Below, piece by piece: positions 1,567-16,835 of a stretch of 23,985 nucleotides of DNA. Within the stretch, counting starts at the first letter, position 1. Each line of letters opens with the position of its first letter. The translations under genes and the position numbers were made by a program. Below the pieces are notes generated by a model, which saw nothing but the letters and a program-made list of their open reading frames with translations, was not told the origin of the DNA and searched no databases. The stretch lies in IMG/VR virus record IMGVR_UViG_3300030012_001523, positions 1-23,985 of that record; one strand, 5' to 3'. Source of the DNA: a virus.

Positions 1567-2019
1567 CTATTCGTCTTTTGGTTGTTGATCAGAAAACATT
1601 TCTGGATTAAACAACTGATAAGATTTTAATTTAGATTTAAAATTTTCATCTTGCATTTCAGCGTCATCAGTAGGTACTAATCTTAATTTACCTCTTTGTA
1701 AATCAAAATATTTTTCACCTAACTCTCTCATCGCTTCATCATAATTTTGTTTAGGCGTAATTTTTCCTAATCTTTCATCATTTCCTCTAAACTCTCTTCC
1801 CATGTAATTTCCAAATTCATCTTTAAAAGCCTGTATTGATCTTATACTATCTGTTTCTGTACCTGCGCTGCTTACAGTTTGCTTTATAGGTATTGGAACT
1901 TGTAACTTTTGCTGCGGTATGTTACTTTCTATAGGTTTTCTTTTTTCCTTAACCATTTTTTTAAAAGTAATCGGAGCCATATGAGGCAATTTATAATTGC
2001 TAAACTTAAATTTGTTCAT
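1567..2019 (-). CDS. Hypothetical protein, last gene of the late operon
   Basis: A 150-aa charged, soluble protein that I do not recognise. It has no signal peptide, membrane segment or cysteine. The N-terminus is basic (KMVKEKRKP at about 21-29) followed by a Pro/Gln-rich linker (residues 33-48); the C-terminal half is acidic and predicted helical (EAMRELGEKYFDLQRGKLRL, near 95-115). The start is chosen because its ATG overlaps the TGA of the endolysin gene by 4 bases (ATGA), suggesting translational coupling; a second in-frame ATG lies at codon 14. The gene ends about 46 bases before the operon terminator. Its position beside the endolysin allows a late or virion role, but nothing in the sequence proves one. 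Confidence 0.75.
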   Translation of the reverse strand: MNKFKFSNYKLPHMAPITFKKMVKEKRKPIESNIPQQKLQVPIPIKQTVSSAGTETDSIRSIQAFKDEFGNYMGREFRGNDERLGKITPKQNYDEAMRELGEKYFDLQRGKLRLVPTDDAEMQDENFKSKLKSYQLFNPEMFSDQQPKDE

Positions 2020-2477
2020 ATTGTTTTATATTTAGTTCTATTATACTCGTCTTTATATGCTTTTAAACATTTGTTTCTATTATCTTCTTCTGATACATAT
2101 GATACATGTATCCAGTTTGGCTGTGTGTCTGTGCCAAATTCCCATATCATTTGATCAAACGACAAGTTTTCTTTTATCCAATGATACATTTCTGCATTAG
2201 TTTTATAACCATAGACATCATCAATATCAATTGCTTGACCTTTACAATGCTGTGAAGTTTTTGAACCTCCTATGGCTTCGTTTAATTCAGCAGATCTAAA
2301 AAACGAATTAACTTTTATTGGTCCACCAACCCACTCTCTTAGTGGTTGAAACACTTTTTCAGCTAATAATTTCATAGCTTCTATTTGTGTTGGATTTGGC
2401 GTATTATCTATTCCTTTACGCTTTGCAGTTTCAGAGTGTATTGCTTCAGCATAAGTTATGTTATGACTTATCTTCAT
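2016..2477 (-). CDS. M15-family peptidoglycan peptidase (endolysin)
   Basis: A 153-aa zinc peptidase of the M15A type (D-Ala-D-Ala carboxypeptidase/endopeptidase fold), expected to cut peptide cross-links in peptidoglycan at the end of infection. The family signature is complete: SQHCKGQAIDID supplies zinc ligands H77 and D84, WEFG supplies the probable catalytic E113, and WIHVSY supplies the third ligand H124. The opening MKISHNITYAEAIHSETA matches the usual N-terminus of this family, which fixes the start even though it overlaps the previous gene by 17 bases. There is no signal peptide, so release to the periplasm should need a holin; a one-TM candidate lies at 4784-5068. Length is normal for a single-domain phage endolysin. 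The assignment to the family is secure; the exact bond cleaved is not shown. Confidence 0.93.
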   Translation of the reverse strand: MKISHNITYAEAIHSETAKRKGIDNTPNPTQIEAMKLLAEKVFQPLREWVGGPIKVNSFFRSAELNEAIGGSKTSQHCKGQAIDIDDVYGYKTNAEMYHWIKENLSFDQMIWEFGTDTQPNWIHVSYVSEEDNRNKCLKAYKDEYNRTKYKTI

Positions 2478-2727
2478 CTTTACCTAATCTTTTTCTTACA
2501 ATGTTCATAGTTGTTTTCATTTTCTTAGCATAGCTAGGTCTTTTCTTTCTGTTGAATACAACTTGTTGGTTTAAGCTACCAATAATCCTTTTTAAATTAC
2601 CTTTTCTAGTTTTAATTAACCAACTAGCTAAAGCACTTGCTGATAGATCATTGAATTTACCTTTTGCATCTGGCGCGTCTGAGTGTTTAAACTCACCCAT
2701 GCGTTTAAAAAATGGTGAATTATACAT
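2461..2727 (-). CDS. Small basic hypothetical protein (88 aa)
   Basis: A Lys/Arg-rich 88-aa protein beginning MYNSPFFKRMGEF and containing LSASALASWLIKTRKGN and a basic stretch NRKKRPSYAKKM. I do not recognise the family. The ATG at 2727 is preferred over an upstream in-frame ATG at 2781 because it follows the stop of the preceding gene by one base and avoids a 50-base overlap. It has no cysteine, signal peptide or membrane segment. The N-terminal S-P-F-x-K motif recurs in neighbouring small proteins. The high positive charge is compatible with nucleic-acid binding or with a minor virion component; this is inference only. Confidence 0.8.
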   Translation of the reverse strand: MYNSPFFKRMGEFKHSDAPDAKGKFNDLSASALASWLIKTRKGNLKRIIGSLNQQVVFNRKKRPSYAKKMKTTMNIVRKRLGKDEDKS

Positions 2728-2728
2728 A

Positions 2729-3253
2729 TTATTTTTCTTTATTTTTATTACAGAAGTTTCTAGCAGCTTCTCTACTACCAAAACCCCACTTTTTTAATGC
2801 CATAGCATATCTAGTAGGTTCTCCTTTTTTATCTTTCATAGAGCCTTTCATACCAGCAAATCTACAAGCAAATGAAACTCTACGCTTACCAGTACCTTTA
2901 GTCTGTCTTTCGCCTAGCGTCTTACCAGTATCACGCTTATGCTCAGCTCTCATTTTTCGATTTTGCTTTTCATAAGCTTGCTCTTTAATATTTAAAGGTC
3001 CGTCAACAAAAGTTCCTTTACTATGATCTCTCATGTGTATATCATAAGCTTTTTTGTTAGCTTCTTTTAATTCGCTATGATCCATGTCTTGAATCTTATT
3101 TTTAAAAGGCGCTTTACGCTTAGCTTCAGCGTGTGCTAAACCTACTTTATTTCCTGAGCCTCTACTTGCTACACCTGCTTGTCTAGATCTCATATCGTTC
3201 CATACTTTAGTGTGCATAACACTAGCAGCACAATGTTTAATTGGTGTTTTCAT
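2729..3253 (-). CDS. Basic protein with conserved Cys-containing C-terminal domain (174 aa)
   Basis: The N-terminus (MKTPIKHCAAS) is followed by a Lys-rich helical middle (about residues 40-110) and a compact C-terminal domain, with RRVSFACRFAGMKGSMKD around residues 124-141, then GEPTRYAMALKKWGFGS and a final EAARNFCNKNKEK. From memory, similar tails occur at the ends of several marine phage and algal-virus proteins; I cannot name a family with certainty. The chosen start overlaps the previous stop as TAATG at 3253, better than the ATG four codons upstream. No signal peptide or transmembrane segment. Two cysteines lie in the terminal domain (SFACRF and RNFCNK) and one near the N-terminus. 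Function unknown; the charge suggests contact with DNA or RNA. Confidence 0.82.
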   Translation of the reverse strand: MKTPIKHCAASVMHTKVWNDMRSRQAGVASRGSGNKVGLAHAEAKRKAPFKNKIQDMDHSELKEANKKAYDIHMRDHSKGTFVDGPLNIKEQAYEKQNRKMRAEHKRDTGKTLGERQTKGTGKRRVSFACRFAGMKGSMKDKKGEPTRYAMALKKWGFGSREAARNFCNKNKEK

Positions 3254-3639
3254 TATTCTCCACATTTTTTAGATGGATCATCAACTCTTCTCCAGTCTTC
3301 TTTTTCAAACCAGTCACGTAGTGTAGCGCCTTTTTTACGAGCGCCTTTTACGTTTGTTTTAGATGATCGTTTATATTTACCTTTAGCTCCTGCAGCTTTT
3401 TTAGAATTTACTAATTTTTGTCTTTGCTCTTTGCTCATGCTTCTTATTTTTGCAGCAGGCAAACAAGTTTTAGTTGTACCACCGCCTTTTTGTTTTTTCA
3501 TTGGTGATCCTTCTTTCATTTCTTCAATGTGATCTTGCACTACTTCAGCTTGAGCTAAATGCATTTTAGAAGCCTTTTTTAATTGTGATACTACACTTGA
3601 AAGAGTTTTGTCTTTATGAAATGGTGATATGTATGTCAT
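3253..3639 (-). CDS. Basic protein with C-terminal LRDWF...W.R.D...CG motif (128 aa)
   Basis: The sequence begins MTYISPFHKDKTLSSVV, has a Gly/Lys-rich linker (MKKQKGGGTTK, about 47-57), a Lys-rich helical region, and a terminal motif ATLRDWFEKEDWRRVD followed by KKCGE. From memory, the L-R-D-W-F...W-x-R-x-D...C-G pattern recurs in small phage and algal-virus proteins, often next to domains like the one in the gene immediately upstream. The ATG overlaps the upstream stop by 4 bases (ATGA, 3636-3639) and its own stop overlaps the next start (TAATG). It contains two S-P-hydrophobic-x-K motifs (ISPFHK, GSPMKK). Strongly basic, no signal peptide. Function unknown. Confidence 0.82.
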   Translation of the reverse strand: MTYISPFHKDKTLSSVVSQLKKASKMHLAQAEVVQDHIEEMKEGSPMKKQKGGGTTKTCLPAAKIRSMSKEQRQKLVNSKKAAGAKGKYKRSSKTNVKGARKKGATLRDWFEKEDWRRVDDPSKKCGE

Positions 3640-4082
3640 TTTTTACAATCTTGCATATTAATAAACCAGTTAGCTAATTGCACATCACGCTTTGTTGCGT
3701 TTCTACGTGCTTTTAATTTACCAACTTTATCACAAGTAACATCTCCACCATATAACTTATTAACACGAGCTTTTAAAACACCTCTGTATTGTTTAGTCAA
3801 TGGAGATTTACCATGTTTTTTTCTTACTTTGTTTTTACAAGCTTTAGCAATAGCTTGTTGCTTAGGTTTGCCGCCAAACTTAGACCTTTGCTCCATAACA
3901 GTTAGTATCTGTATTTTTCTAGCAAAAGGTTTACTAAGATTTAAAACCTTACTACATGTTGATCTTGCGTCTGCTTCACTAGCAAACTTAATACCTACTG
4001 TATCTTTTGGGTTTTCATCTGTATAAAGTCTACGACCTGAACCTTTAGGTTTTTTACCTGTACCTTTTTTAGGATCAGCCAT
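3636..4082 (-). CDS. DUF5872-like basic protein (148 aa)
   Basis: The first third carries KKPKGSGRRLYTDENPKDTV (about 11-30) followed by GIKFASEADARSTCSKV. I recognise this as the signature of DUF5872-type domains found in algal giant viruses and some marine phages; the name is from memory and should be verified. After it comes KPFARKIQILTVMEQR, probably a helix, then a very basic region with CKNKVRKKHGKSPLTKQYRG, and a terminal ANWFINMQDCKK. Four cysteines are spread through the chain. Start ATG overlaps the stop of the 50-aa gene upstream (TAATG at 4082). The domain has no established biochemical role; the charge and Cys content invite a nucleic-acid or virion role, unproven. Confidence 0.85.
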   Translation of the reverse strand: MADPKKGTGKKPKGSGRRLYTDENPKDTVGIKFASEADARSTCSKVLNLSKPFARKIQILTVMEQRSKFGGKPKQQAIAKACKNKVRKKHGKSPLTKQYRGVLKARVNKLYGGDVTCDKVGKLKARRNATKRDVQLANWFINMQDCKK

Positions 4083-4234
4083 TACTTTTTACCTCCGCCA
4101 AATTTACTTGGACCTCCAGCTCTTGTACATCTTACGCCCCAACCTGAAGCATAAGCACTTGGCCAAACTTTAAACTTTCTTTTTGCAGCTGCTTTACAAG
4201 CTGAACTAATTTTTCCGTATAATGGTGAACTCAT
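4082..4234 (-). CDS. 50-aa basic protein with KVWPSAYASGW motif
   Basis: A short gene read directly from the minus strand: MSSPLYGKISSACKAAAKRK, then FKVWPSAYASGWGVRC, then TRAGGPSKFGGGKK and TAA. The F-K-V-W-P-S-A-Y-A-S-G-W core followed by a Cys is, from memory, a recurring small domain in marine phage and large algal-virus proteins. The stop overlaps the start of the DUF5872-like gene as TAATG, and the gap to the previous gene is 5 bases, so it fits the operon exactly and is very likely real despite its length. It carries the SPLYGK variant of the S-P-hydrophobic motif seen in its neighbours. Function unknown. Confidence 0.85.
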   Translation of the reverse strand: MSSPLYGKISSACKAAAKRKFKVWPSAYASGWGVRCTRAGGPSKFGGGKK

Positions 4235-4239
4235 AATTA

Positions 4240-4386
4240 TTATATTTCGCTAAATACCGCGTAGACTTTAATATTACGTTTTCTGCCTTTGCGTATTGTA
4301 GCTATTAATTCTTTTCTCTCTTTTACTTCTTCTTCTTTAATTGAATAATATTTAGGATTTGTACTATTTAATTTTCTTTTTTTCAT
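4240..4386 (-). CDS. 48-aa basic hypothetical protein
   Basis: Read from the minus strand: MKKRKLNSTNPKYYSIKEEE, then VKERKELIATIRKGRKRNIK, then VYAVFSEI and TAA. It is highly charged with a basic start, an acidic patch (KEEEVKE) and a basic segment (RKGRKR); the ending is hydrophobic. The ATG overlaps the stop of the thioredoxin-like gene (TAATG at 4386) and the next gene begins 5 bases after its stop, so spacing supports a real gene. I recognise no family. The composition is lysine-rich like the adjacent small proteins, but it lacks their S-P motif and cysteines. Confidence 0.72.
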   Translation of the reverse strand: MKKRKLNSTNPKYYSIKEEEVKERKELIATIRKGRKRNIKVYAVFSEI

Positions 4387-4784
4387 TAGAATTGACTTGC
4401 AGTATTTACCTCATCAACTGCTTCTTGTATTTCATTTAAATTTGCCGGTAACTCTAAGTCTAGTCCTGCCTTAAAAACCGTTTCTTTTATTCCTTCTTTA
4501 AATATGATTAATGTAGGCGCCATACGAACTTTGTATTTCTTTTTAGCTACAGGACAATCAGCTATATCTGCTCTGTAGTATATTACATTTTCTAATTTAT
4601 CCCACTCATCAAATTTATTTGCATCGTTAAACTTAGCGTAAAACTCTACAACAACAAGCTTTGATTTATCATCACCAAAAGCTTGTTTTTCATTTATCTT
4701 ACTATCAAAGTTATCGTCAGTAATCCACTCTTGAGCTGACATACTAAACGATAGTAATAGTAAAATTATAGTTAAATATTTCAT
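4386..4784 (-). CDS. Secreted thioredoxin-fold protein lacking the CxxC motif
   Basis: A 132-aa protein with a clear signal peptide (MKYLTIILLLLSFSMSA, cleavage before QEW, a typical Bacteroidota SAQ site), so it should act in the periplasm. The mature part reads as a thioredoxin fold: a strand LVVVEFYA (43-50), then KFNDAN where an active thioredoxin would have W-C-x-x-C, then VIYYRADIAD, and KVRMAPTLIIFKEG with the cis-proline P90. The only cysteine is C77 (ADCPVA), after the third strand. It therefore cannot be a conventional disulfide reductase; a chaperone-like, scaffold or host-protein-binding role is more plausible. Both ends overlap neighbouring genes by one base (TAATG), next to the one-TM protein and the beta-barrel protein, so it is part of an envelope cassette. 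Confidence 0.85.
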   Translation of the reverse strand: MKYLTIILLLLSFSMSAQEWITDDNFDSKINEKQAFGDDKSKLVVVEFYAKFNDANKFDEWDKLENVIYYRADIADCPVAKKKYKVRMAPTLIIFKEGIKETVFKAGLDLELPANLNEIQEAVDEVNTASQF

Positions 4785-5068
4785 TATCTTTGTTTTTGTA
4801 TCTCGTACAGTCTTTCGTCTATCTTTTCAATAGTTTCTTTTATTTCCTCTACATCTTCTTGAGTATCCATAATTGTTTGACGTATTAATTCATCTTTTAA
4901 ATCATATTCTACTCTATCAATAACTGGTACAGGTAATTCTTTAGCTTGAGCTATATCTGCTTGCAATGTAAACCACATACCTGCTAACATTAATACAAAA
5001 CCAATAATCATGCCTATTGTTTTAAGATCAAGCGTTACTTGTGTTTCTTCACCTATTTTCTTTGCCAT
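4784..5068 (-). CDS. One-TM protein with C-terminal coiled coil; holin or spanin candidate
   Basis: A 94-aa protein with a short polar N-terminus (MAKKIGEETQVTLDLK), one hydrophobic segment (TIGMIIGFVLMLAGMWFTL, about 17-35), a short linker with PVPVID, and a long charged helix with coiled-coil heptads (about 60-92, EDVEEIKETIEKIDERLYEI). The single TM with an external or periplasmic coil is typical of pinholin/holin-type or inner-membrane spanin proteins in phage lysis regions. An endolysin without a signal peptide lies about 2.3 kb downstream in the same operon and a lipoprotein 1.2 kb upstream, so a lysis role is sensible but not proven. It starts one base after the stop of the beta-barrel gene and overlaps the thioredoxin-like start (TAATG). 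Confidence 0.78.
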   Translation of the reverse strand: MAKKIGEETQVTLDLKTIGMIIGFVLMLAGMWFTLQADIAQAKELPVPVIDRVEYDLKDELIRQTIMDTQEDVEEIKETIEKIDERLYEIQKQR

Positions 5069-5069
5069 T

Positions 5070-6242
5070 TTATCTTAGTGTTATGTTCAGGCCAACTGAA
5101 CCATTATAAATTTTACTATCCCAAAACTTAGTATATTCGCCTTCAAAAAATACACCAATTGATTTGTTTAACTTCCAACCAAATACTACGCCAGCTTGAT
5201 AATCCTCCCATTGTTCAAGATCTGAATCTTGACGAAGTCCACCAAGACCCCAATTATTTCTATTTAAATAACTAAAGTCTTCATCGCCTTTTACATACTT
5301 GTGATATGGTAATAAATAAGAACCGTAAGCATGAAGCCAAAAATTATTTTTATAGTGATAAAAGTCAAAACCGATCACAGGTGATACAACACCAAATGGA
5401 TCTAATAAATCCCATTGCTCATTATTATAACGATTAATTAATGATTCAAATATAGTGTCACGGAACTGTAAATCAGTATAAGCAACAACTTCACCTTCTG
5501 GATTGTACCAGTAGTAATCATATACTTCTTCACCATCAATATCTATAGTAACCCATTGATCAGTATAACCGTAATTATAACCTAATTGATACCAATAATT
5601 AACCGGCCAACCATTACTATCTGTTTCATTTAACCATATTTCTACAGGATTATAACCGTAAGGTCTTTCGTGTGTACGATATATAGCCCCAGCATTTAAA
5701 GAAAACTTTTTACCAATAGGTAATTTACCTCTAACTTCAGCTGATTTGTAATTAAAATTTACTTTACCTTGTTTTCTACTTTCAACTTTAACTACATGGT
5801 ATTTTCCACTATGTTTTAGAAAATAACGGTGATTTTTAAACTCTTCATCTCTGGATCTTTCTTTTTCAATATGTACTACGTATTCTAAACCTTTAATCGG
5901 TGAGTTAGAAGCTGCTAAACCTACGTTAGATTCAGTTCCATCATAATATTGTTTACCTTTTATTTCATAATCAAACCTTGCTATTTTTCTAATACCAAAA
6001 CCATAGCGATAATCAAAATCATAATAGTCAGTACCATCAACTACAACAGGAGGTTCATATATGTTGCCGCTAGGATTTGTTCTTACAAAATAATCTTTTG
6101 GTTCTTCTTTAGGATTTTGCACATCACCAGCTACATATATAGTTCCATATTTTAAAAAATCTTTATATATTTTTTTAAAAATATTTTGCGAACTTATATT
6201 TAAACTTATTAAAAACAATATTAGTGTAAATATATTTTTCAT
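5070..6242 (-). CDS. Secreted beta-rich protein, probable outer-membrane barrel
   Basis: A 390-aa protein with a signal peptide (MKNIFTLILFLISLNISS, cleavage before QN) and no further membrane helices. The mature chain is rich in Tyr/Trp/Phe/Gly with alternating polar and hydrophobic residues over strand-length pieces, such as KFSLNAGAIYRTHERP, GVVFGWKLNKSIGVFFEGEY and the C-terminal SVGLNITLR, as seen in outer-membrane beta-barrels of Bacteroidota. There is no plug or TonB box that I can see. Residues 200-290 are Tyr/Trp/Asp-rich and may form extracellular loops. A phage-encoded outer-membrane protein might mask or replace the phage receptor (superinfection exclusion), change permeability, or help lysis; a virion role is less likely because of the signal peptide. 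No family recognised. Confidence 0.82.
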   Translation of the reverse strand: MKNIFTLILFLISLNISSQNIFKKIYKDFLKYGTIYVAGDVQNPKEEPKDYFVRTNPSGNIYEPPVVVDGTDYYDFDYRYGFGIRKIARFDYEIKGKQYYDGTESNVGLAASNSPIKGLEYVVHIEKERSRDEEFKNHRYFLKHSGKYHVVKVESRKQGKVNFNYKSAEVRGKLPIGKKFSLNAGAIYRTHERPYGYNPVEIWLNETDSNGWPVNYWYQLGYNYGYTDQWVTIDIDGEEVYDYYWYNPEGEVVAYTDLQFRDTIFESLINRYNNEQWDLLDPFGVVSPVIGFDFYHYKNNFWLHAYGSYLLPYHKYVKGDEDFSYLNRNNWGLGGLRQDSDLEQWEDYQAGVVFGWKLNKSIGVFFEGEYTKFWDSKIYNGSVGLNITLR

Positions 6243-6268
6243 TATTTATAGTTTTTAAACATTAATTT

Positions 6269-6298
6269 ATACAACAGCTTATTCCAACACTGTTGTAT
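6269..6298 (-). terminator. Weak hairpin overlapping the lipoprotein stop codon
   Basis: A perfect 9-bp inverted repeat (ATACAACAG at 6269-6277 and CTGTTGTAT at 6290-6298) with a 12-nt loop that contains the TAA of the lipoprotein gene. It is AT-rich and lacks a good U-tract on the minus strand (AATTAATGTTTAAAAAC follows), so it is at most a weak terminator, attenuator or RNA-processing site between the giant-protein/lipoprotein part and the lysis part of the operon. Confidence 0.35.
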
Positions 6299-6602
6299 TT
6301 TGTCTATTAATTTTTTTAATTTTTTCTTCATTTATTTTTTTTATTATATAATTTACAACGACGCCTCCAAGCCAAGTTGCTAATAAATCTTTACCATCAA
6401 ATCTACCATAATCTGCATAGTCATATAATTCTTTGGCAAAACCTATAGCAAAAGCAGCGCTTGTAGGTGTTAAATCTAACTGATGCCCTACTACTTCTGT
6501 AGCTGCTCCAGCTGCAAAATGATAATATTTATCAGGCCCTATTGATTGTGTGCTAGCACAGCCCACAGTAACCATTGCAAAAAGGACAAGTATTTTTTTC
6601 AC
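6279..6602 (-). CDS. Small lipoprotein resembling YfiM
   Basis: A 107-aa protein with a lipoprotein-type signal (MKKILVLFAMVTVGC, lipidated C15; the -3 Thr makes the lipobox slightly non-canonical, which is tolerated in Bacteroidota). The mature part has DKYYHFAAGAATEV, then FAIGFAKELYDYADYGRFDGKD and LLATWLGGVVVNYII. This order D-K-x-x-H-F ... A-K-E-x-x-D ... D-x-K-D-x-x-A-T-x-x-G matches the E. coli lipoprotein YfiM (DUF2279-like), from memory. The start is GTG at 6602: an in-frame TGA lies directly upstream and the nearby ATG is out of frame. It begins 7 bases after the giant-protein stop. Its role may be envelope modification or an outer-membrane spanin-like function; neither is shown. 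Confidence 0.83.
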   Translation of the reverse strand: MKKILVLFAMVTVGCASTQSIGPDKYYHFAAGAATEVVGHQLDLTPTSAAFAIGFAKELYDYADYGRFDGKDLLATWLGGVVVNYIIKKINEEKIKKINRQNTTVLE

Positions 6603-6609
6603 TCATAAT

Positions 6610-9600
6610 TTATTTTTTAGGTTTAACATAATATTGTATTTTACCGTCATATCTTTGTATAGCTACATAATCAACTCCAAGTTTACCTTTTGGTTTTTCG
6701 CCTTCTGGCAAAGCGTTCTTACCAGTAAAAGGTATTCTTTTGGTAAAACCTTGTTCTTTATATTTACGGACATCATTTTTATATTTTTCCATAAATTTTT
6801 CTTTTTCTTCAGCTTCTTGTTTAATAGTACTTTCTAATCCCCAATATGGTAAACCTAAATTCCAACCTGACCAACCCATTAATAAAGCAATTGTTTGCCA
6901 AGCTTTAGTTTCATCATCAAACGCTTGAGCAATGTTCATCATTTTTCTTAAAACTCTATCTACAGGAATATTAGTAAAAGCTGATACTATTTGAGATACT
7001 GCTAAATAAGCTGGGTTTTCTAGATCCCATCCTTTTCTTTTAATATCTTTCATGTTCCATTCAAAAGTTTTAGCAGCTGATTTTAATTTTCTAACTTTAG
7101 AATCTACTACAGGTGAAACATCAAATACAGTGTCTACAGCATCAATATATTTAGGACTTTGTTTTTCGCTTTCGCTAAGTACTCTCATGCCTATGTTTTT
7201 AACTGTAGATATAATTGCTCCACCAAAACCTAATCCATTTAATAATGAATCTAACATACCATTAGCTATTCTAGCTGTTTTGCTTTGTTCTTTTTTATAT
7301 TCATCATCATCATCAAATAATGTAGCAAATAAAGCTTGTTGTAGCCCATTAAATATTAAGTTTTGCACACCTACATAATATAAAATTCCTGATATATTAC
7401 TTAAATCACTTTCACGCTGAGTCATACCTGGTCTTCTACGTCTGTTGTAAAGATCTTGTATCATTTTTTTAGTCTTTCTATTGTACTGCATAGTAACATT
7501 TTGGAAAGACAGTAACAACCTACCACCATAACTAGCTTGCTGAGATGATATTTTACTAGGATTACTTGACTGTTGAGTTTCTTCTGCTATTGCATAAAAA
7601 TCATCAAACGCTTTAGCTTCGGCTTCAGCTGGTGTATATAATTTACCAGTTTTTTCATTTACCCTGTTTAATAAAGATTTTTTTCTATTAATAAAAAATG
7701 TAGCCCCACCAGTAGCAATAGCTAAACTATCCATGATTCTAGTTATAATAAAACCTTTGTCAAGTAAATAACTAATCATACCTTGTATTCCACCTTTGTT
7801 AGCAGCTTCTGTTAATTCAGCTTCGTTAACATTTATTTTCAAACCATCTCGTCTATTAACAAGATAATCAGAGTTCATTAACTTCATAACAGTTGGTACA
7901 TATTCTGAACTAGCAAAAGCTTTAGAAGCGTTATATATATTATTATCACCCCAATTTATAAAATTTACATTAGATATAAGCTGTAATAAACCAGATCGCA
8001 TATTTAAGAACATTACCGCGCCTACAGAAGCGTTAAGCCAGTCAAGCATATCATTAACTTGACGAGATCCACTTCCTTCAAATATAGGTCTATTGCTACC
8101 ACGTTTCATTCTACTTAGAGAATCACGTAAAGCTTCAACCCATTTGCTACCATAAATAGACTCTAACTTATTCATGTTCTCATTAGAAAATAATATTTCT
8201 ACATTTTGATTCCACTCTGTTAATAGTTCGCTTCTATATGTAGTGTCTAAACCATTCATTATGTCTGAAGCTATATCTCCACCAATCCAATATGAATTTT
8301 TAGGCGGCGGATAACCTTCGCCTTTTTGAACTAGCAATATGTTTTCTGCAAACGGTAATAATTCTAAATCATTTTCAACAGCTTCAACTAAAGCATCTAT
8401 GTCTTTTTGATCAATACCAGGTATTTCTGTACCTTGTTTATTCCATAAATAAACTCTTACAGCATGAGACTTAGTATAAGGACCAACTCCTATTTCATCG
8501 CGTAGTGGATTTCTTGATACACCTATTCTATTTTTTCTAGATCTTAAAGTTGGAAAAGCCTCTTTAATAGCAGCAAAATCTGCAGCTACTGTAACCTTCG
8601 CAGATAATAATTCTTGTTCAGCTTTGTTATAAGGTCTAATTAAATGATCATCAATAAATTTTAAATGTCTATCACCTTGTCTTCCTGTACCAGTTATATC
8701 ATATAATAAACCTAAAAAGTCTGCAGCTGATGCAGTTATTGTAAACTGTCTACCTATTCGTTTAAGCAAACCACCGTCTTTCTTTCTACCTTCTAGTCTA
8801 GCTCTTACATCACTTACTGTTTGACCTGCTTTTACACCTGTTACTTCTTCTATTTGTTTGTTGAACTCTTCACTTAATACTTGCTCTTTAGCAGCAATAG
8901 CTTGTTGTACTTCAGACTTAACATCTATTTGATCTAATACGTTTTTAACCTGTTGAACATTTAATAATGAATCATCAGAGAAATAAAAATCATTATAACC
9001 TTCAGCTGCTTTATTTAAAAACCAATCAGCTTTAGCCTGTGGATCACCGTTGCCTAATCCTGTAATATTCTTTTTAGGTATATTTAAACCAATACCTTTT
9101 AAAAATTTATGTATAGCGTCTACAGATGCGTCAGGTCTAGCAGTGACTACAAATATATCTTTTGGCCCAAACTTTTTTTGCTTCTTTCTAGCTTCATCTA
9201 CCATTGGACCTTCTAATGTAGATAAATCTACATTTTCAAAATTACTAAAATCAAAAGTAGCACCTTCTGCAGTTAATTGCTCTGCTTGTACAGCAAACTC
9301 ACTAGCTGTTAGTTCACCTGTTTTACCATCTGGCATTGTATATAATACTTTTTCTTTTGTTAATGCTAGTGTATCATCAAAGTCAAAAGCACTTAAACCT
9401 TTAGTTTCTTTTTTTACTTCTTGAGCTTTGTTTCTAGCATCTTGTGAGTTGACTAATGTTTGTTTAACTTCTCTTGGACTTTGTTTAGTTGTAATAATAT
9501 CACTAGCTGTATTTGCAATATTATCTCTTGCTATATTTTCATTTTTTAACAACTCTTGAACAGCTGGTGTTTCCATTAATTTACCAAATGAAGCAGGATT

Positions 9601-12600
9601 ACCTAAGTCATATTTAGATTTTACATTAGATTTTAAATTAGCAGGAACAAAAGCTAATGTAGGTGTTATGTTTCCATTATCATCTGTTTTAGATCTTTTA
9701 AATCTAAAAACCATATCAACACTTCCTTGTAAAGCTGGTATGTCTAAACCTAAAGGATTTTGACCCATGTAAAACAATCCTTGTCCTTTTATGTTTATAT
9801 AATAAACAGGTGGTTGTTTTTTATTATAAAGTTCTACAACTACCTCAGCATCCATTGTTTGCTTAACAGTTGTTGGTATTTGTAAACCTGCTTCTTGATT
9901 ATTATTCCAAGCGGTAAGAGGTATTTTTTTAGAACTTGTAGTTAAGTCAACACCTTGATCTGTAATGCCTTTAGCCCAAGCTTTTAAATTAGGTTCATTT
10001 TTCTTAACTAATTTATCTAGTTCTGCTTGAAGCTCTTGACTATAGTAATCTTTTGTAAATTTAAACTTATTAGTTTTAAAATCATAAGTACCATTAACAC
10101 TACTATATTGAGCATTTTCAAGTTTAGATTCACCTAAAAACTCTATACCATTTAATTCAAAAGCAAAATCAAAATTTCTATATCTACCTTTTTCACTAGG
10201 TTTTTTTAATATAACTTTTAATCCTGGATATTTTTTACTTAATTCTATAGCATTATTTATAACTAACTGCTCATAGGCTTTATCTCTTTTAAAACCAGTA
10301 AGAGCTGATATTTCATCTATTAAATATTGTACATCAACAGCATCCCCTTCAACGTTTTCTTCAGTAAGACCTGCTTCTTTCATTACTGGTTCAACCTCTG
10401 TTGATTTTAAACCAGTAATTTTTACAATATAATCTTTTGCAGCTTTAAAAGCTTTAGCAAATGATTTAGTTTTTTGATAAACAGTTTTAAATGTTTTTAA
10501 AGCAGTTTTAATAATTTTTGCAACAGGAGTTATAGGATTAACGCCAAGTGTTCCTTCCATGCTTTTTATATATGAATCAACTTCTTGTATCATATTGTCT
10601 AACACATCTTCAACTACATCTAACGAAGTATCTTCTTTAACTCTTTGATCAGCATCTTTTTGAAACTGATCCATAAATTGCTCAGCATTTAAATCAGAAC
10701 CTTTTAGTTCTAACACATCGTTAAGCTTGTTCATAAAATCAGTATCACCTTTCATTGCTTGTACTTCTTCTACTATAGCTCCTTCTGCTAATATACTAAA
10801 TAAAGACTGTGATCTTTTTTCGTTTGCTTTAAAATAATCTTTTATTTTTTGTATAGTTTCTGGTGTTGTTTTAGGTATTCTAAATACTTGCTTTTTAAAA
10901 TCAGTACGTTTACCATCTCTAACGTTTTTAGTAGGTGTTTTACCTATTTCTTCTATACCAAACAATTTACCAAATCTACCTTTAATAGTAGACAAAGGCA
11001 GTGAATTTATAAAATCTTGATTAACAACATCATCAACAAATTGATTATATTCTGGTGAGCCAAATCTACCTATCGCACCTTTAATAACATTTCTAATTTC
11101 TTTTTCTTTAGTTTTGCTTATAATATCTTTTGCTACTACATCTGGACTAACCCCTTTGTCGTTAATAGATCTTATTATTTCATCTTTAACTTTAGTATTT
11201 TGTGTTTCTCTTACTTCAGGTGTAAGTTTTTCTGCAACAACTTCTAACTGAGATGGATAAACTTTAGGTCTTTGTGGAACTTCTTGTCTAGTGTCAGTTT
11301 CAACTTGAGTATCAGCTACTTGTCTAGCGCCCTCAACGTCTAAGCTAACACCTCTTTGACCTATACTAGCTTCAGCATATATTTCTTGCATTTTAGGCTT
11401 TAAAGAATTTGTTACATATGTGCTCCAGGTAACGCCCTTTGTAGGATCAAAATTATTTATAATTGGACCAAGTCTAGAATTAATAGCTTCTAATACTTTG
11501 CTTCTTGGTATTGTACCTGCTTCTGTACTAAATCTAACAGCTTCTAAATACAAGTTTTGATTACTGTCTATTAAAGCTTGTTGAGCTTGATTTTGATCAG
11601 CTTTGCTAGCGTTAGGATCTTTTATTGTTGTAAGCAATGTTTCATTTATACCATCAGCTGAATCGTCTATCTCTATATCTGTTTCTTCTACAGTTTCACC
11701 AGTTCTTCTAGTTGGTAAAACACTCATACCTGCTGTTTGTGATTTTTCTTGTTCAAAAGCAGCTTTTTCTTCTACAACTATTTCACCTAATCTACTATTT
11801 ATTTCATTTACTCTATTTGTATCTTCTTGAGTTAAAGAAGAATCATCAACTTGTTTTATTTTTTGCTGTAATTTATTTTTTTCTATTAACAAACTAGTTG
11901 CTTCAACATTTTCATTTAATCCTAGTGGTTTTAATTGTTGAGATGCTTGAGTTATATTTCTAAAATTTTCTTGTATATTATCAGCTTGTTCTTGATTTAT
12001 TTTACCTAATTCTAAATCTTTTGTAATTTGTTGATCTAATATTGTTTTAGCTTTTGGTGTTTGTGCTATTTTTAATTCTTCTAATCCACTAACAGGTTTA
12101 GATAAATCTACAGGTGTAGAATAAATTTCAGTTATATTGTTAACATTAAAATTAGGATTAACTTTAGCAAGACTTTTGTTTATTTTATTAATAGCTACCG
12201 CTTCTTGAATACCGTTTTTAACTTGCATTACATTTATAGGACCAGCATATGTGGCACCACCACCAACACCTTGTATAAAAGCATCGTTAACTCCTTCAAA
12301 CGGATCTTTACCGTTTATCATGTTTTGAGTTATTTGTGTAGCAACTTCCTCTATACCTTCACCTAATGCACCTACCGGAGCTCCTGCTTTTTTAAGAGCT
12401 TGTTCATACATTTCAATTAACCCGTTTCTAAATACTTTTTGTCCTTGCTGTCTACCTTCTTTCAGTAATATATCTTTATATACTTTACCTAAAGTTCCAC
12501 TACCAATAGCAGAAAAAACTGTTTCAGCACCTGCCAAACCTATTGCTTTAGCTGTTAAATCAAACTCACTAGCCCCTGGATTTTCTTCTCTTAATCTTTC

Positions 12601-13545
12601 AAGCTCAGGTCCTAAAAACATAGGAGTTGAACCAGCGGCTAATTTAGGTATACTTGTGCTAGCACCACCAGCCATCATACCTATACTTACCGGCGCGCTT
12701 TCAGCTAAACCACTACCTAGTTGTTTAAAACCATCTGACCAATTACCTTTTTTAAAATTTTCATAAATACCTTCAGTATCATAATTTTCATTATTCCAAA
12801 TAGCTTGTTCTTTACCTAACTTTTCGCTTTCTTTTTGATAAAACTCTAATAAAGGATTTGTTATGCCAAAATCTTCTTTAAATTTTTTAGAACTAGCTTC
12901 AAATTCTTTAGGTAAAACACCAGCTTTTACTAAAGCGTTTTGAGGTATAGAAAATATATCATAAAAACTCTCACCTAAACTAAACATCATTTCACCTAAT
13001 GTTGTACTGCCTTTAGCTAAATCTACAGTTACTAGTTTTTCTAAATAAGATTTTTTAGCTATTTTATCTTTTTCTATTTGCTCTTTATCTTGTCCGCTTC
13101 TTAAAGCTGTATTATGATCTTCAATAGCTTTATTTAACTTAACTAAAGTATCGTTATACATTTTAATTCTATTAGGAGCATCCATTGCATCCATTTCCAT
13201 GTCACCTCCAGATATTTGAATTAAATCAGCTTCAAGTTTATTTATATTGTTTTGAGAACTTTTAAAATTAAATTCCTCTACATCTATTTCAGGTTCTATA
13301 GGTTCTGTAGCTGAAGCAATAGTTAAAGGTATAGGTTCGTCTTCTTTTTGTTTTTCTTTTTGTTCTATTGGCTCAGTAGCAGATTCAATAGTTAATTTTA
13401 TAGGCTTTTGTTCTACAACTTCTTCAACTTCCTCTTCAACTTGTGGTTGAGGGTTTTTTTTCTTCCATTCCTCTACTTTAGCATATATCTCTTCTTGAGA
13501 TAAATTCTGATCCTGTAAAGAAATAACGTATTCTTGTAGAGTCAT
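6610..13545 (-). CDS. Giant multidomain internal virion/ejection protein (2311 aa) with HAD, PD-(D/E)XK-like and sigma-region-2-like segments
   Basis: The N-terminus is acidic and Pro-rich with a tandem LTIxSATEPIE repeat (51-61, 74-84). A hydrophobic Gly/Ala-rich stretch lies at about 280-320. Residues 658-725 read like sigma-70 region 2 (LIDSNQNLYLEAVRF ... FDPTKGVTWSTY). Residues 1110-1150 contain a PD-(D/E)XK-like core (D1126, E1139-S-K1141). Residues 1385-1530 are a HAD hydrolase (FDFDDTLA, nucleophile D1388 and D1390; VVTARP with T1468; SDDS with D1524/D1525). The last 700 residues are helical with hydrophobic segments near 2044-2078 and 2090-2115. Its size, position behind the tail genes and domain mix fit the large polyvalent proteins that phages inject with their DNA; membrane-interacting parts suggest it helps form the ejection channel. 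Start ATG directly follows the previous TAA. No catalytic residue is visibly lost in the HAD part. Enzymatic activity is inferred. Confidence 0.88.
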   Translation of the reverse strand: MTLQEYVISLQDQNLSQEEIYAKVEEWKKKNPQPQVEEEVEEVVEQKPIKLTIESATEPIEQKEKQKEDEPIPLTIASATEPIEPEIDVEEFNFKSSQNNINKLEADLIQISGGDMEMDAMDAPNRIKMYNDTLVKLNKAIEDHNTALRSGQDKEQIEKDKIAKKSYLEKLVTVDLAKGSTTLGEMMFSLGESFYDIFSIPQNALVKAGVLPKEFEASSKKFKEDFGITNPLLEFYQKESEKLGKEQAIWNNENYDTEGIYENFKKGNWSDGFKQLGSGLAESAPVSIGMMAGGASTSIPKLAAGSTPMFLGPELERLREENPGASEFDLTAKAIGLAGAETVFSAIGSGTLGKVYKDILLKEGRQQGQKVFRNGLIEMYEQALKKAGAPVGALGEGIEEVATQITQNMINGKDPFEGVNDAFIQGVGGGATYAGPINVMQVKNGIQEAVAINKINKSLAKVNPNFNVNNITEIYSTPVDLSKPVSGLEELKIAQTPKAKTILDQQITKDLELGKINQEQADNIQENFRNITQASQQLKPLGLNENVEATSLLIEKNKLQQKIKQVDDSSLTQEDTNRVNEINSRLGEIVVEEKAAFEQEKSQTAGMSVLPTRRTGETVEETDIEIDDSADGINETLLTTIKDPNASKADQNQAQQALIDSNQNLYLEAVRFSTEAGTIPRSKVLEAINSRLGPIINNFDPTKGVTWSTYVTNSLKPKMQEIYAEASIGQRGVSLDVEGARQVADTQVETDTRQEVPQRPKVYPSQLEVVAEKLTPEVRETQNTKVKDEIIRSINDKGVSPDVVAKDIISKTKEKEIRNVIKGAIGRFGSPEYNQFVDDVVNQDFINSLPLSTIKGRFGKLFGIEEIGKTPTKNVRDGKRTDFKKQVFRIPKTTPETIQKIKDYFKANEKRSQSLFSILAEGAIVEEVQAMKGDTDFMNKLNDVLELKGSDLNAEQFMDQFQKDADQRVKEDTSLDVVEDVLDNMIQEVDSYIKSMEGTLGVNPITPVAKIIKTALKTFKTVYQKTKSFAKAFKAAKDYIVKITGLKSTEVEPVMKEAGLTEENVEGDAVDVQYLIDEISALTGFKRDKAYEQLVINNAIELSKKYPGLKVILKKPSEKGRYRNFDFAFELNGIEFLGESKLENAQYSSVNGTYDFKTNKFKFTKDYYSQELQAELDKLVKKNEPNLKAWAKGITDQGVDLTTSSKKIPLTAWNNNQEAGLQIPTTVKQTMDAEVVVELYNKKQPPVYYINIKGQGLFYMGQNPLGLDIPALQGSVDMVFRFKRSKTDDNGNITPTLAFVPANLKSNVKSKYDLGNPASFGKLMETPAVQELLKNENIARDNIANTASDIITTKQSPREVKQTLVNSQDARNKAQEVKKETKGLSAFDFDDTLALTKEKVLYTMPDGKTGELTASEFAVQAEQLTAEGATFDFSNFENVDLSTLEGPMVDEARKKQKKFGPKDIFVVTARPDASVDAIHKFLKGIGLNIPKKNITGLGNGDPQAKADWFLNKAAEGYNDFYFSDDSLLNVQQVKNVLDQIDVKSEVQQAIAAKEQVLSEEFNKQIEEVTGVKAGQTVSDVRARLEGRKKDGGLLKRIGRQFTITASAADFLGLLYDITGTGRQGDRHLKFIDDHLIRPYNKAEQELLSAKVTVAADFAAIKEAFPTLRSRKNRIGVSRNPLRDEIGVGPYTKSHAVRVYLWNKQGTEIPGIDQKDIDALVEAVENDLELLPFAENILLVQKGEGYPPPKNSYWIGGDIASDIMNGLDTTYRSELLTEWNQNVEILFSNENMNKLESIYGSKWVEALRDSLSRMKRGSNRPIFEGSGSRQVNDMLDWLNASVGAVMFLNMRSGLLQLISNVNFINWGDNNIYNASKAFASSEYVPTVMKLMNSDYLVNRRDGLKINVNEAELTEAANKGGIQGMISYLLDKGFIITRIMDSLAIATGGATFFINRKKSLLNRVNEKTGKLYTPAEAEAKAFDDFYAIAEETQQSSNPSKISSQQASYGGRLLLSFQNVTMQYNRKTKKMIQDLYNRRRRPGMTQRESDLSNISGILYYVGVQNLIFNGLQQALFATLFDDDDEYKKEQSKTARIANGMLDSLLNGLGFGGAIISTVKNIGMRVLSESEKQSPKYIDAVDTVFDVSPVVDSKVRKLKSAAKTFEWNMKDIKRKGWDLENPAYLAVSQIVSAFTNIPVDRVLRKMMNIAQAFDDETKAWQTIALLMGWSGWNLGLPYWGLESTIKQEAEEKEKFMEKYKNDVRKYKEQGFTKRIPFTGKNALPEGEKPKGKLGVDYVAIQRYDGKIQYYVKPKK

Positions 13546-15344: not shown

Positions 15345-16835
15345 TTATTGATAACCATTGTTTGCTATATATTCACTTCCAACAGCAAATAACTCTTTTT
15401 CACCTCCAATGTCTGTTACTGAGTCTGTTGCTATTGTTACTGTTGCAAAAAATCCTTTAATACCTGACATGGACGAACCAAAAGCTATTTCACCTGAAGC
15501 AGCGCTGCTATTGTTTATTAAATTTGCAACATATTTATTTTCTTTTCTATTAAAACCAGCGTAGTTAAAAGGAAGCACAATTGCTGACGCGCCTGTATTA
15601 GCTGGAGTTGCTGAGTCATAAGTTCCTTCAACATAGCTATATATTAAAGCGCTTGTATCTTGAAAGTCAACCCAGTTATTGTTAGAGTAATTTAAGTTTT
15701 TACCTGTTAAATCTGAAACAAAACTATTTATTTGCCAACCATTACTTCCTTCATAATCAACAGTTTTAAAGTTTTTAGATCTTGATACTGCTGGGTTAAA
15801 AACAAACGTAATAGAACTAGGTTTTATCGAACCACCATCATTAGGGTAGAATTTGTTTCTAACACCTGCTAAAGAGTAATGCTCATATAAAGAACCAAAT
15901 TTTACGCTATAAAACTTATTACCTAAACTAAACATGTGATCTGGTTTATAAGTAAAAAAGCTAGTCCAACCTTTAATATTTTCGTCCCATGTTAATGTTT
16001 CATAACCTTCTTCAAATGTAAATTCATTTTTGCCTGATTCTTGAGTAGATAAAACATATTGTTTATTATAAATATCCCAACCTCCTATTATTTTACCTGG
16101 AACTCCTGCTACATTTATATCTGTTCCTAATCTATCTCTAAAATAATCTATCATATTAGCTGCTGATATTTCTTGTATTTGACCACCAACTAGTTTTAAT
16201 ATTACATTATTATTTTTATCAGAAAAATATTTTGCTGTTCCATAAAAAGCAAAACTCTGAGGATCTTTACTAATACCATATTTACCTGGAAAAGGAACTA
16301 TTTGACCTATTACTAAGTTTTGTTGTGTAACAGCTGTTCCAGATCCTTCTGCAGAATATATAGCGTCTTTATTTATTAAAGCTTTATTTATTTTTAATTC
16401 TTGAAATATAGTTAAATTAGTATTTTCTGCATGAAGTTTTTGTATTGAACCATTTGATGGATTTAATGATTTAACTATATTATCACCAACTGAAAAAACA
16501 TTTGTTTCATTAATACCTGTTCTAGAATTAAATATACCAGAGTATATCATACTATTACCTCTTACAGAACTATTTGGCTCTTCTTCTACTAAATAAGCTT
16601 TAGCTCCAAAAGATACAGTTGTGTTATTATAACCACCGTTTATTCTTGATTCTTCAATAACCCAGTTATTACCTACATCTGTATTTGTAGAACTAGGATA
16701 ACCACCTTTATTAGCTGGTATACCATTAGAACCGTTCCAAACAGGTATATCACCGTAGCTTGGACTAGTTATATTAGCATTAACTTTCTTTAGAAGGAAT
16801 GTATTAAAGTATTTAACTTCTACAATAGCAGCCAT
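15345..16835 (-). CDS. Tail protein, resembling the C-terminal part of larger tail/stalk proteins (496 aa)
   Basis: The central region carries a conserved structural-protein pattern: IFQELKINKALINKDAIYSA (144-162), GKYGISKDPQSFAFYGTAKY (184-203), YFSDKNNNVILKL and MIDYFRDRL (to about 236), then KIIGGWDIYNKQYVLST (248-264). From memory this series of motifs is found in long tail proteins of marine and crAss-like phages, C-terminal to a section like the protein encoded just upstream, so here the two appear as separate genes. Repeated short beta-strands and aromatic residues suggest a propeller or beta-rich fold that contacts the tail tube. No signal peptide. Start ATG is preceded by an AT-only leader (AATAATAATAAT) rather than a Shine-Dalgarno sequence. 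It is confidently a virion protein; the exact position in the tail is uncertain. Confidence 0.82.
   Translation of the reverse strand: MAAIVEVKYFNTFLLKKVNANITSPSYGDIPVWNGSNGIPANKGGYPSSTNTDVGNNWVIEESRINGGYNNTTVSFGAKAYLVEEEPNSSVRGNSMIYSGIFNSRTGINETNVFSVGDNIVKSLNPSNGSIQKLHAENTNLTIFQELKINKALINKDAIYSAEGSGTAVTQQNLVIGQIVPFPGKYGISKDPQSFAFYGTAKYFSDKNNNVILKLVGGQIQEISAANMIDYFRDRLGTDINVAGVPGKIIGGWDIYNKQYVLSTQESGKNEFTFEEGYETLTWDENIKGWTSFFTYKPDHMFSLGNKFYSVKFGSLYEHYSLAGVRNKFYPNDGGSIKPSSITFVFNPAVSRSKNFKTVDYEGSNGWQINSFVSDLTGKNLNYSNNNWVDFQDTSALIYSYVEGTYDSATPANTGASAIVLPFNYAGFNRKENKYVANLINNSSAASGEIAFGSSMSGIKGFFATVTIATDSVTDIGGEKELFAVGSEYIANNGYQ

Follow-up and report, generated by a model that had tools for sequence, protein, structure and literature searches.

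Organization of the locus

The stretch of DNA analysed here (the window) comprises bases 1-23,985 of a 47,931-base viral record, G000, which has no end repeats and is possibly incomplete. A preliminary description of this DNA had placed four adjacent genes at positions 4386-6602, and four consecutive minus-strand open reading frames are found at exactly those coordinates. Together with the flanking genes that matter for the argument, they are:

6610..13545, minus strand: large protein of 2311 aa, directly upstream, 7 bases from LIP; late-operon context, outside the module
6279..6602, minus strand: LIP, 107 aa, YfiM-like putative lipoprotein, optional accessory of the trio
5070..6242, minus strand: BB, 390 aa, secreted, predicted 12-strand outer-membrane beta-barrel, core gene 1
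4784..5068, minus strand: TMC, 94 aa, one transmembrane (TM) segment and a periplasmic coiled coil, core gene 2
4386..4784, minus strand: TRX, 132 aa, secreted thioredoxin fold without redox cysteines, core gene 3
2016..2477, minus strand: M15 peptidase endolysin (Pfam Peptidase_M15_3, 6.2e-17; phrog_894 endolysin, 1.1e-31), downstream, a conserved neighbour of the trio

The gaps between LIP and BB, BB and TMC, and TMC and TRX are 36, 1 and -1 bases, and TAATG stop/start overlaps join TMC to TRX and TRX to the next gene. A scan for promoters and terminators returned signals no commoner than in shuffled sequences. The 2311-aa gene, which many relatives also have upstream of the trio, is probably a virion gene. 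The interval between the trio and the endolysin (2461-4234) encodes small, very basic proteins of 106, 178, 128, 148 and 50 aa, whose number and order differ among relatives; the 178-aa protein matches DUF6321 (1.3e-9).

Predicted properties of the four proteins

TRX has a signal peptide and matches the Pfam Thioredoxin family (PF00085) at 9.7e-7, scoring 29.2 bits where the cut-off is 23.5. Its AF2 model reaches a pLDDT of 85, its best PDB fold matches are thioredoxins, and Foldseek aligns it to Trx1 at 6.6e-8. The secreted thioredoxin fold of the preliminary description is therefore sound, with the correction that the redox CxxC is absent: positions 53-56 of the window protein read N-D-A-N instead. 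Among 78 aligned homologues, N53 is present in 60 and N56 in 73, and none has the active-site cysteine pair; the sole CxxC among 171 distinct TRX ORFs lies inside a signal peptide. TRX thus shares with the thioredoxin family its fold and cis-proline loop (APT), but differs in lacking CxxC, in being secreted and in having a conserved C-terminal phenylalanine. Since the cysteine pair is missing from every aligned homologue, TRX is read as a pseudo-enzyme, most likely serving as a binding module.

BB begins with a signal peptide of the ordinary type. With AF2 on 85 BB sequences, 12 long strands are predicted with a mean pLDDT of 79, and the closest folds in the PDB are those of outer-membrane barrels (BamA, OmpT, NanC, PorB and autotransporter domains). 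The TM-scores of these matches are low (0.2-0.3 on the query), so that the barrel class is clear and the nearer family is not. A Pfam search with the 85 members gave no family above noise, and a PDB sequence search with BB gave no match. Strand parity puts all the long loops (43-76, 192-282 and 311-346) on the same side, the arrangement that an outer-membrane barrel should have. Mean conservation is 0.775 in the predicted extracellular loops versus 0.845 in the strands, and the alignment contains invariant columns by the dozen. As modelled, BB therefore combines the signal peptide, even-stranded barrel and one-sided long loops of an outer-membrane beta-barrel, which gives substance to the earlier description of a secreted, beta-barrel-like protein.

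TMC was described at the outset as a one-TM coiled-coil protein, and this holds: a TM scan places a single segment at about residues 20-38 (KD 2.04), and residues 62-90 form uninterrupted a/d heptads that none of 5000 shuffles equalled. The alignment comprises 71 homologues. The N-terminal flank of the TM segment is less negative than the C-terminal flank in 75% of 161 homologues, weakly supporting an N-in/C-out orientation. The periplasmic part would be only 56 residues, about 8.4 nm if helical. A match to ribosomal protein S6 in the PDB sequence search (0.03) was judged to be chance helix similarity. Some phages carry a near paralogue of TMC (L143 7413-7715, L239 10090-10422 and L246 9506-9835), sometimes in tandem with it as TMC-TMC-TRX; the paralogue bears the conserved stretch WPRGEMGALPDDAKQDLR, and the L239 copy matches phrog_20984 (9.3e-13).

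LIP starts with GTG, and its signal peptide ends in TVGC, a weak lipobox; a lipobox is recognisable in just 16 of 55 homologues. The match of LIP to NCBIfam YfiM (3.3e-4, 20.9 bits) is under the curated equivalog cut-off of 117, as is the stronger match of a homologue, L030 (6.6e-10). LIP therefore resembles YfiM / DUF2279, a predicted periplasmic lipoprotein, through a weak match that improves in one homologue, and departs from it in a score far under 117 bits and in a lipobox not kept across the phage family. Its C-terminal hydrophobic segment is weak (1.21, under threshold). LIP has Vibrio phage relatives. Among the collected loci LIP is present in a minority, at a variable site: ahead of BB, between TRX and BB, or following TRX. 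The lipoprotein of the preliminary description thus exists as a gene with a weak lipobox, but is not a constant part of the cassette.

BB, TMC and TRX form a conserved trio

Related loci were collected separately with BB, TRX, LIP and TMC, and each distinct TMC sequence was counted once. BB, TMC and TRX, whose folds or topologies are established computationally, each have more than 170 distinct homologous ORFs, and these lie side by side so consistently that the adjacency is not due to chance. TRX lies behind TMC in every one of the 162 distinct TMC genes whose flanking sequence is long enough (within 120 bp in 158), and BB is near TMC in 106 of 107 with enough flank, including loci collected by TMC alone. 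The gene orders are BB-TMC-TRX (142) and TMC-TRX-BB (27). The conserved unit is thus this trio and not a quartet, and the four-gene cassette first described is really three core genes and one optional gene, LIP.

Gene fusions between trio members, sought as proof of contact, were not found. Distances among TMC sequences track those among TRX sequences closely (r=0.80, n=156, Mantel p 0.001). The distances among BB sequences follow those of TMC and TRX only loosely (r 0.19 and 0.31), so that co-variation does not support a tight contact of BB. Relative to the window type, members of the TMC-TRX-BB clade have a BB that is 76% identical and a TRX that is 25% identical, and in large phages BB is 57% and TMC 70% identical. 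These uneven identities indicate that parts of the trio have been exchanged, yet the three remain together.

Distribution and likely host

The records bearing the trio measure roughly 50-77 kb or 160-180 kb; they are linear and may be incomplete. The large terminase subunit (TerL) of the window record is 62% identical to that of MW202828 (podovirus-like, Manatee Spring) and 43% identical to those of Flavobacterium Elemovirus phages, and positions 15345-16835 match the Crassvirus muzzle protein (PF25731, 2.9e-9). From these TerL relatives and the crAss-like muzzle match, the host is probably a marine member of the Bacteroidota, and the trio carriers, a group of uncultured marine phages, probably infect this phylum. 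The combination itself, of a crAss-like tail with a terminase near those of Elemovirus-type flavophages, is recorded here as a side observation, as are GroES-like and GroEL-like genes at 41412-43200 of G000, found in Elemovirus and MW202828 too.

When 50,697 named phage records were searched by tblastn for BB, TMC and TRX, no match was obtained at E 0.01, the only threshold at which we rely on it, as the list for BB (two queries) was oddly empty even at E 10. Scanning 84,980 species genomes with two BB peptide patterns yielded 8 loci, all on MAG contigs; in 7 of them TMC and TRX adjoin BB, and in the eighth BB lies near the contig end. These 8 contigs are probably phage contigs, and a host-derived origin of BB was set aside. 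Three PBPJ01 contigs binned as a Woesearchaeota archaeon (L175, L176 and L181) contain the phage barrel gene, accompanied in two cases by the rest of the trio, and are probably mis-binned phage contigs.

The trio usually lies in a lysis neighbourhood

Eighty loci have 4.5 kb of sequence on both sides of the trio, and in 65 of these an endolysin-type gene lies within that distance: M15 in 56, PG-binding plus Amidase_2 in 4, Amidase_2 alone in 2 and DUF5675, counted on the assumption that it acts on peptidoglycan, in 3. At the other 15 loci no recognised endolysin was found within 4.5 kb. Because these counts share ancestry, our argument rests not on the proportion but on the diversity of endolysin families and phage sizes, which suggests a functional rather than merely inherited neighbourhood. 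In the relative G006, the genes are tightly packed in the order TMC-TRX-BB-small YfiM-like-M15-holin, and in the 164-kb relative G025 the order is BB-TMC-TRX-amidase-Phage_holin_4_1. Moreover, in rearranged genomes (G006, L179, L182 and L225), the trio neighbourhood tracks the endolysin and not a virion gene.

The preliminary description had also allowed for a holin within the cassette, and this part finds no support. A 153-aa holin candidate is encoded outside the window, at 37565-38026 of G000 (2066-2527 of L167, minus strand), with a match to phrog_3427 holin at 2.4e-17 and to GTA_holin_3TM at 0.0013, below the cut-off. Though far from the endolysin in G000, it closely resembles by eye the G006 holin, which is a gene of its own after the trio and endolysin. 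Thus, none of the four genes need be a holin.

A possible role in outer-membrane disruption

Based upon this context, we tentatively propose, at a little short of even confidence, that BB, TMC and TRX form a late, lysis-linked complex that spans the envelope and disrupts the outer membrane. TMC would be anchored in the inner membrane with its coiled coil reaching into the periplasm, redox-dead TRX would bind TMC as an adaptor in the periplasm, and BB would provide the anchor in the outer membrane. A holin encoded elsewhere and the M15 endolysin would first breach inner membrane and cell wall; the complex, if expressed late and localised as predicted, would then disrupt or fuse the outer membrane, with an outer-membrane protein and an adaptor replacing the spanin lipoprotein. 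The suggestion that these genes span inner membrane, periplasm and outer membrane for lysis is favoured by context (an inseparable trio, varied endolysins and the holins of relatives), apart from its holin component.

Other functions have to be weighed against this one. Phage-encoded outer-membrane proteins are a familiar route to superinfection exclusion, and BB in the outer membrane, together with TRX and TMC, could block adsorption or DNA entry; its loops are well conserved (0.775), as if binding something constant. Such proteins usually diversify fast, unlike BB, and exclusion genes are usually early, whereas this module sits between a large, probably virion gene and an endolysin and accompanies endolysins and holins of different families. 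We thus consider exclusion or receptor shielding rather unlikely. The position of the trio directly downstream of the 2311-aa gene in many relatives, and the occurrence of other kinds of phage-encoded porins among uncultured phages, could instead point to a virion or entry component, or to envelope remodelling unrelated to lysis by a phage porin whose periplasmic partner resembles a chaperone. However, BB and TRX have signal peptides, and in the four rearranged genomes the neighbourhood goes with the endolysin, which makes such a role quite improbable.

Two further possibilities would keep the trio within lysis. One-TM holins exist, TMC adjoins the endolysin region and it has a weak match, short of significance, to phrog_1296 holin (0.08); TMC could then be the holin of the cassette and the remaining genes unrelated passengers. 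The candidate at 37565-38026 is a better holin, some relatives have separate holins beside TMC, and TRX and BB hardly ever occur apart from TMC; we therefore discarded this as the main reading and regard it as very improbable indeed. Alternatively, BB and TRX could monitor the condition of the outer membrane or detect superinfection, with TMC signalling to holin or endolysin, and so time or inhibit lysis. The genomic evidence serves this idea as well as it serves outer-membrane disruption, TMC and TRX co-vary, a near paralogue of TMC occurs in some phages (TMC-TMC-TRX), and multi-protein lysis inhibition is known in T4 and N4 (PMC12642591). Yet timing would not require that a barrel always be present beside endolysins of several families, and no known antiholin resembles the trio proteins; this explanation, too, appears unlikely.

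Comparison with spanins

Measured against two-component spanins (lambda Rz/Rz1), the proposed outer-membrane disruptor shares a small inner-membrane protein with an N-terminal TM segment and a periplasmic coiled coil, an outer-membrane partner, a tight gene pair and a position in the lysis cassette. With one TM segment and heptads at 62-90, TMC has the features of an i-spanin, its orientation being weakly supported. No o-spanin is apparent: an ORF embedded within TMC was looked for and not found, the signal peptide of BB is ordinary and LIP is optional. The putative outer-membrane partner is a barrel and not a lipoprotein, a periplasmic pseudo-thioredoxin is added, and the coiled coil of TMC is far shorter than that of Rz. 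Given an estimated length of about 25.5 nm for the Rz-Rz1 complex (PMC5295617) and 8.4 nm for the periplasmic part of TMC if helical, TMC would need TRX and BB to bridge the periplasm, unless the two membranes first move closer together. Unimolecular spanins (T1 gp11 type) have in common with the trio the proposed disruption step. None of BB, TMC and TRX combines a lipobox with a C-terminal TM segment, and the LIP segment is below threshold (1.21). Lacking a conserved lipoprotein, the trio would act like a spanin but falls outside the spanin definition.

A hydropathy and lipobox scan of the window record (47.9 kb) found one lipoprotein, LIP, and one small single-TM coiled-coil protein, TMC; in the 77-kb relative G005, it found no credible lipoprotein ORF. 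By these simple pattern rules no canonical o- or u-spanin was seen in either record, both possibly incomplete, so that canonical spanins could sit in missing parts. Unimolecular spanins are the only type reported for Bacteroidetes phages (PMC12596118). In two large-phage loci, short u-spanin-like ORFs with an N-terminal lipobox and a C-terminal hydrophobic stretch lie near the trio (L239 10419-10589 and L249 9644-9829); should these be u-spanins, the trio could not be a simple substitute for spanins in those phages. Proteins with one N-terminal TM segment and a long periplasmic linker are encoded at L172 20614-21159 (Elemovirus gp32) and G025 6477-7073; gp32 has a beta-strand-like end and no Pfam or NCBIfam match, and proteins of this type may be a further link between inner and outer membranes in flavophages.

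How the outer membrane is broken by phages of Gram-negative bacteria that have no spanin is an acknowledged open question, for which Kongari et al. named an outer-membrane protein acting as o-spanin as a possible, unstudied option (PMC6139136). That no canonical spanin was seen in the window record or G005 fits such phages, and the trio, found at well over 100 different marine viral loci, is a defined candidate for this step. If so, a periplasmic thioredoxin pseudo-enzyme would gain a clear biological role. Thus, the trio may represent a hitherto undescribed means by which the outer membrane is breached as the host bursts, and it is conceivable, though on balance doubtful, that it constitutes a third class of spanin-like outer-membrane disruptor in many marine Bacteroidota phages without recognisable spanins, beside the two-component and unimolecular types.
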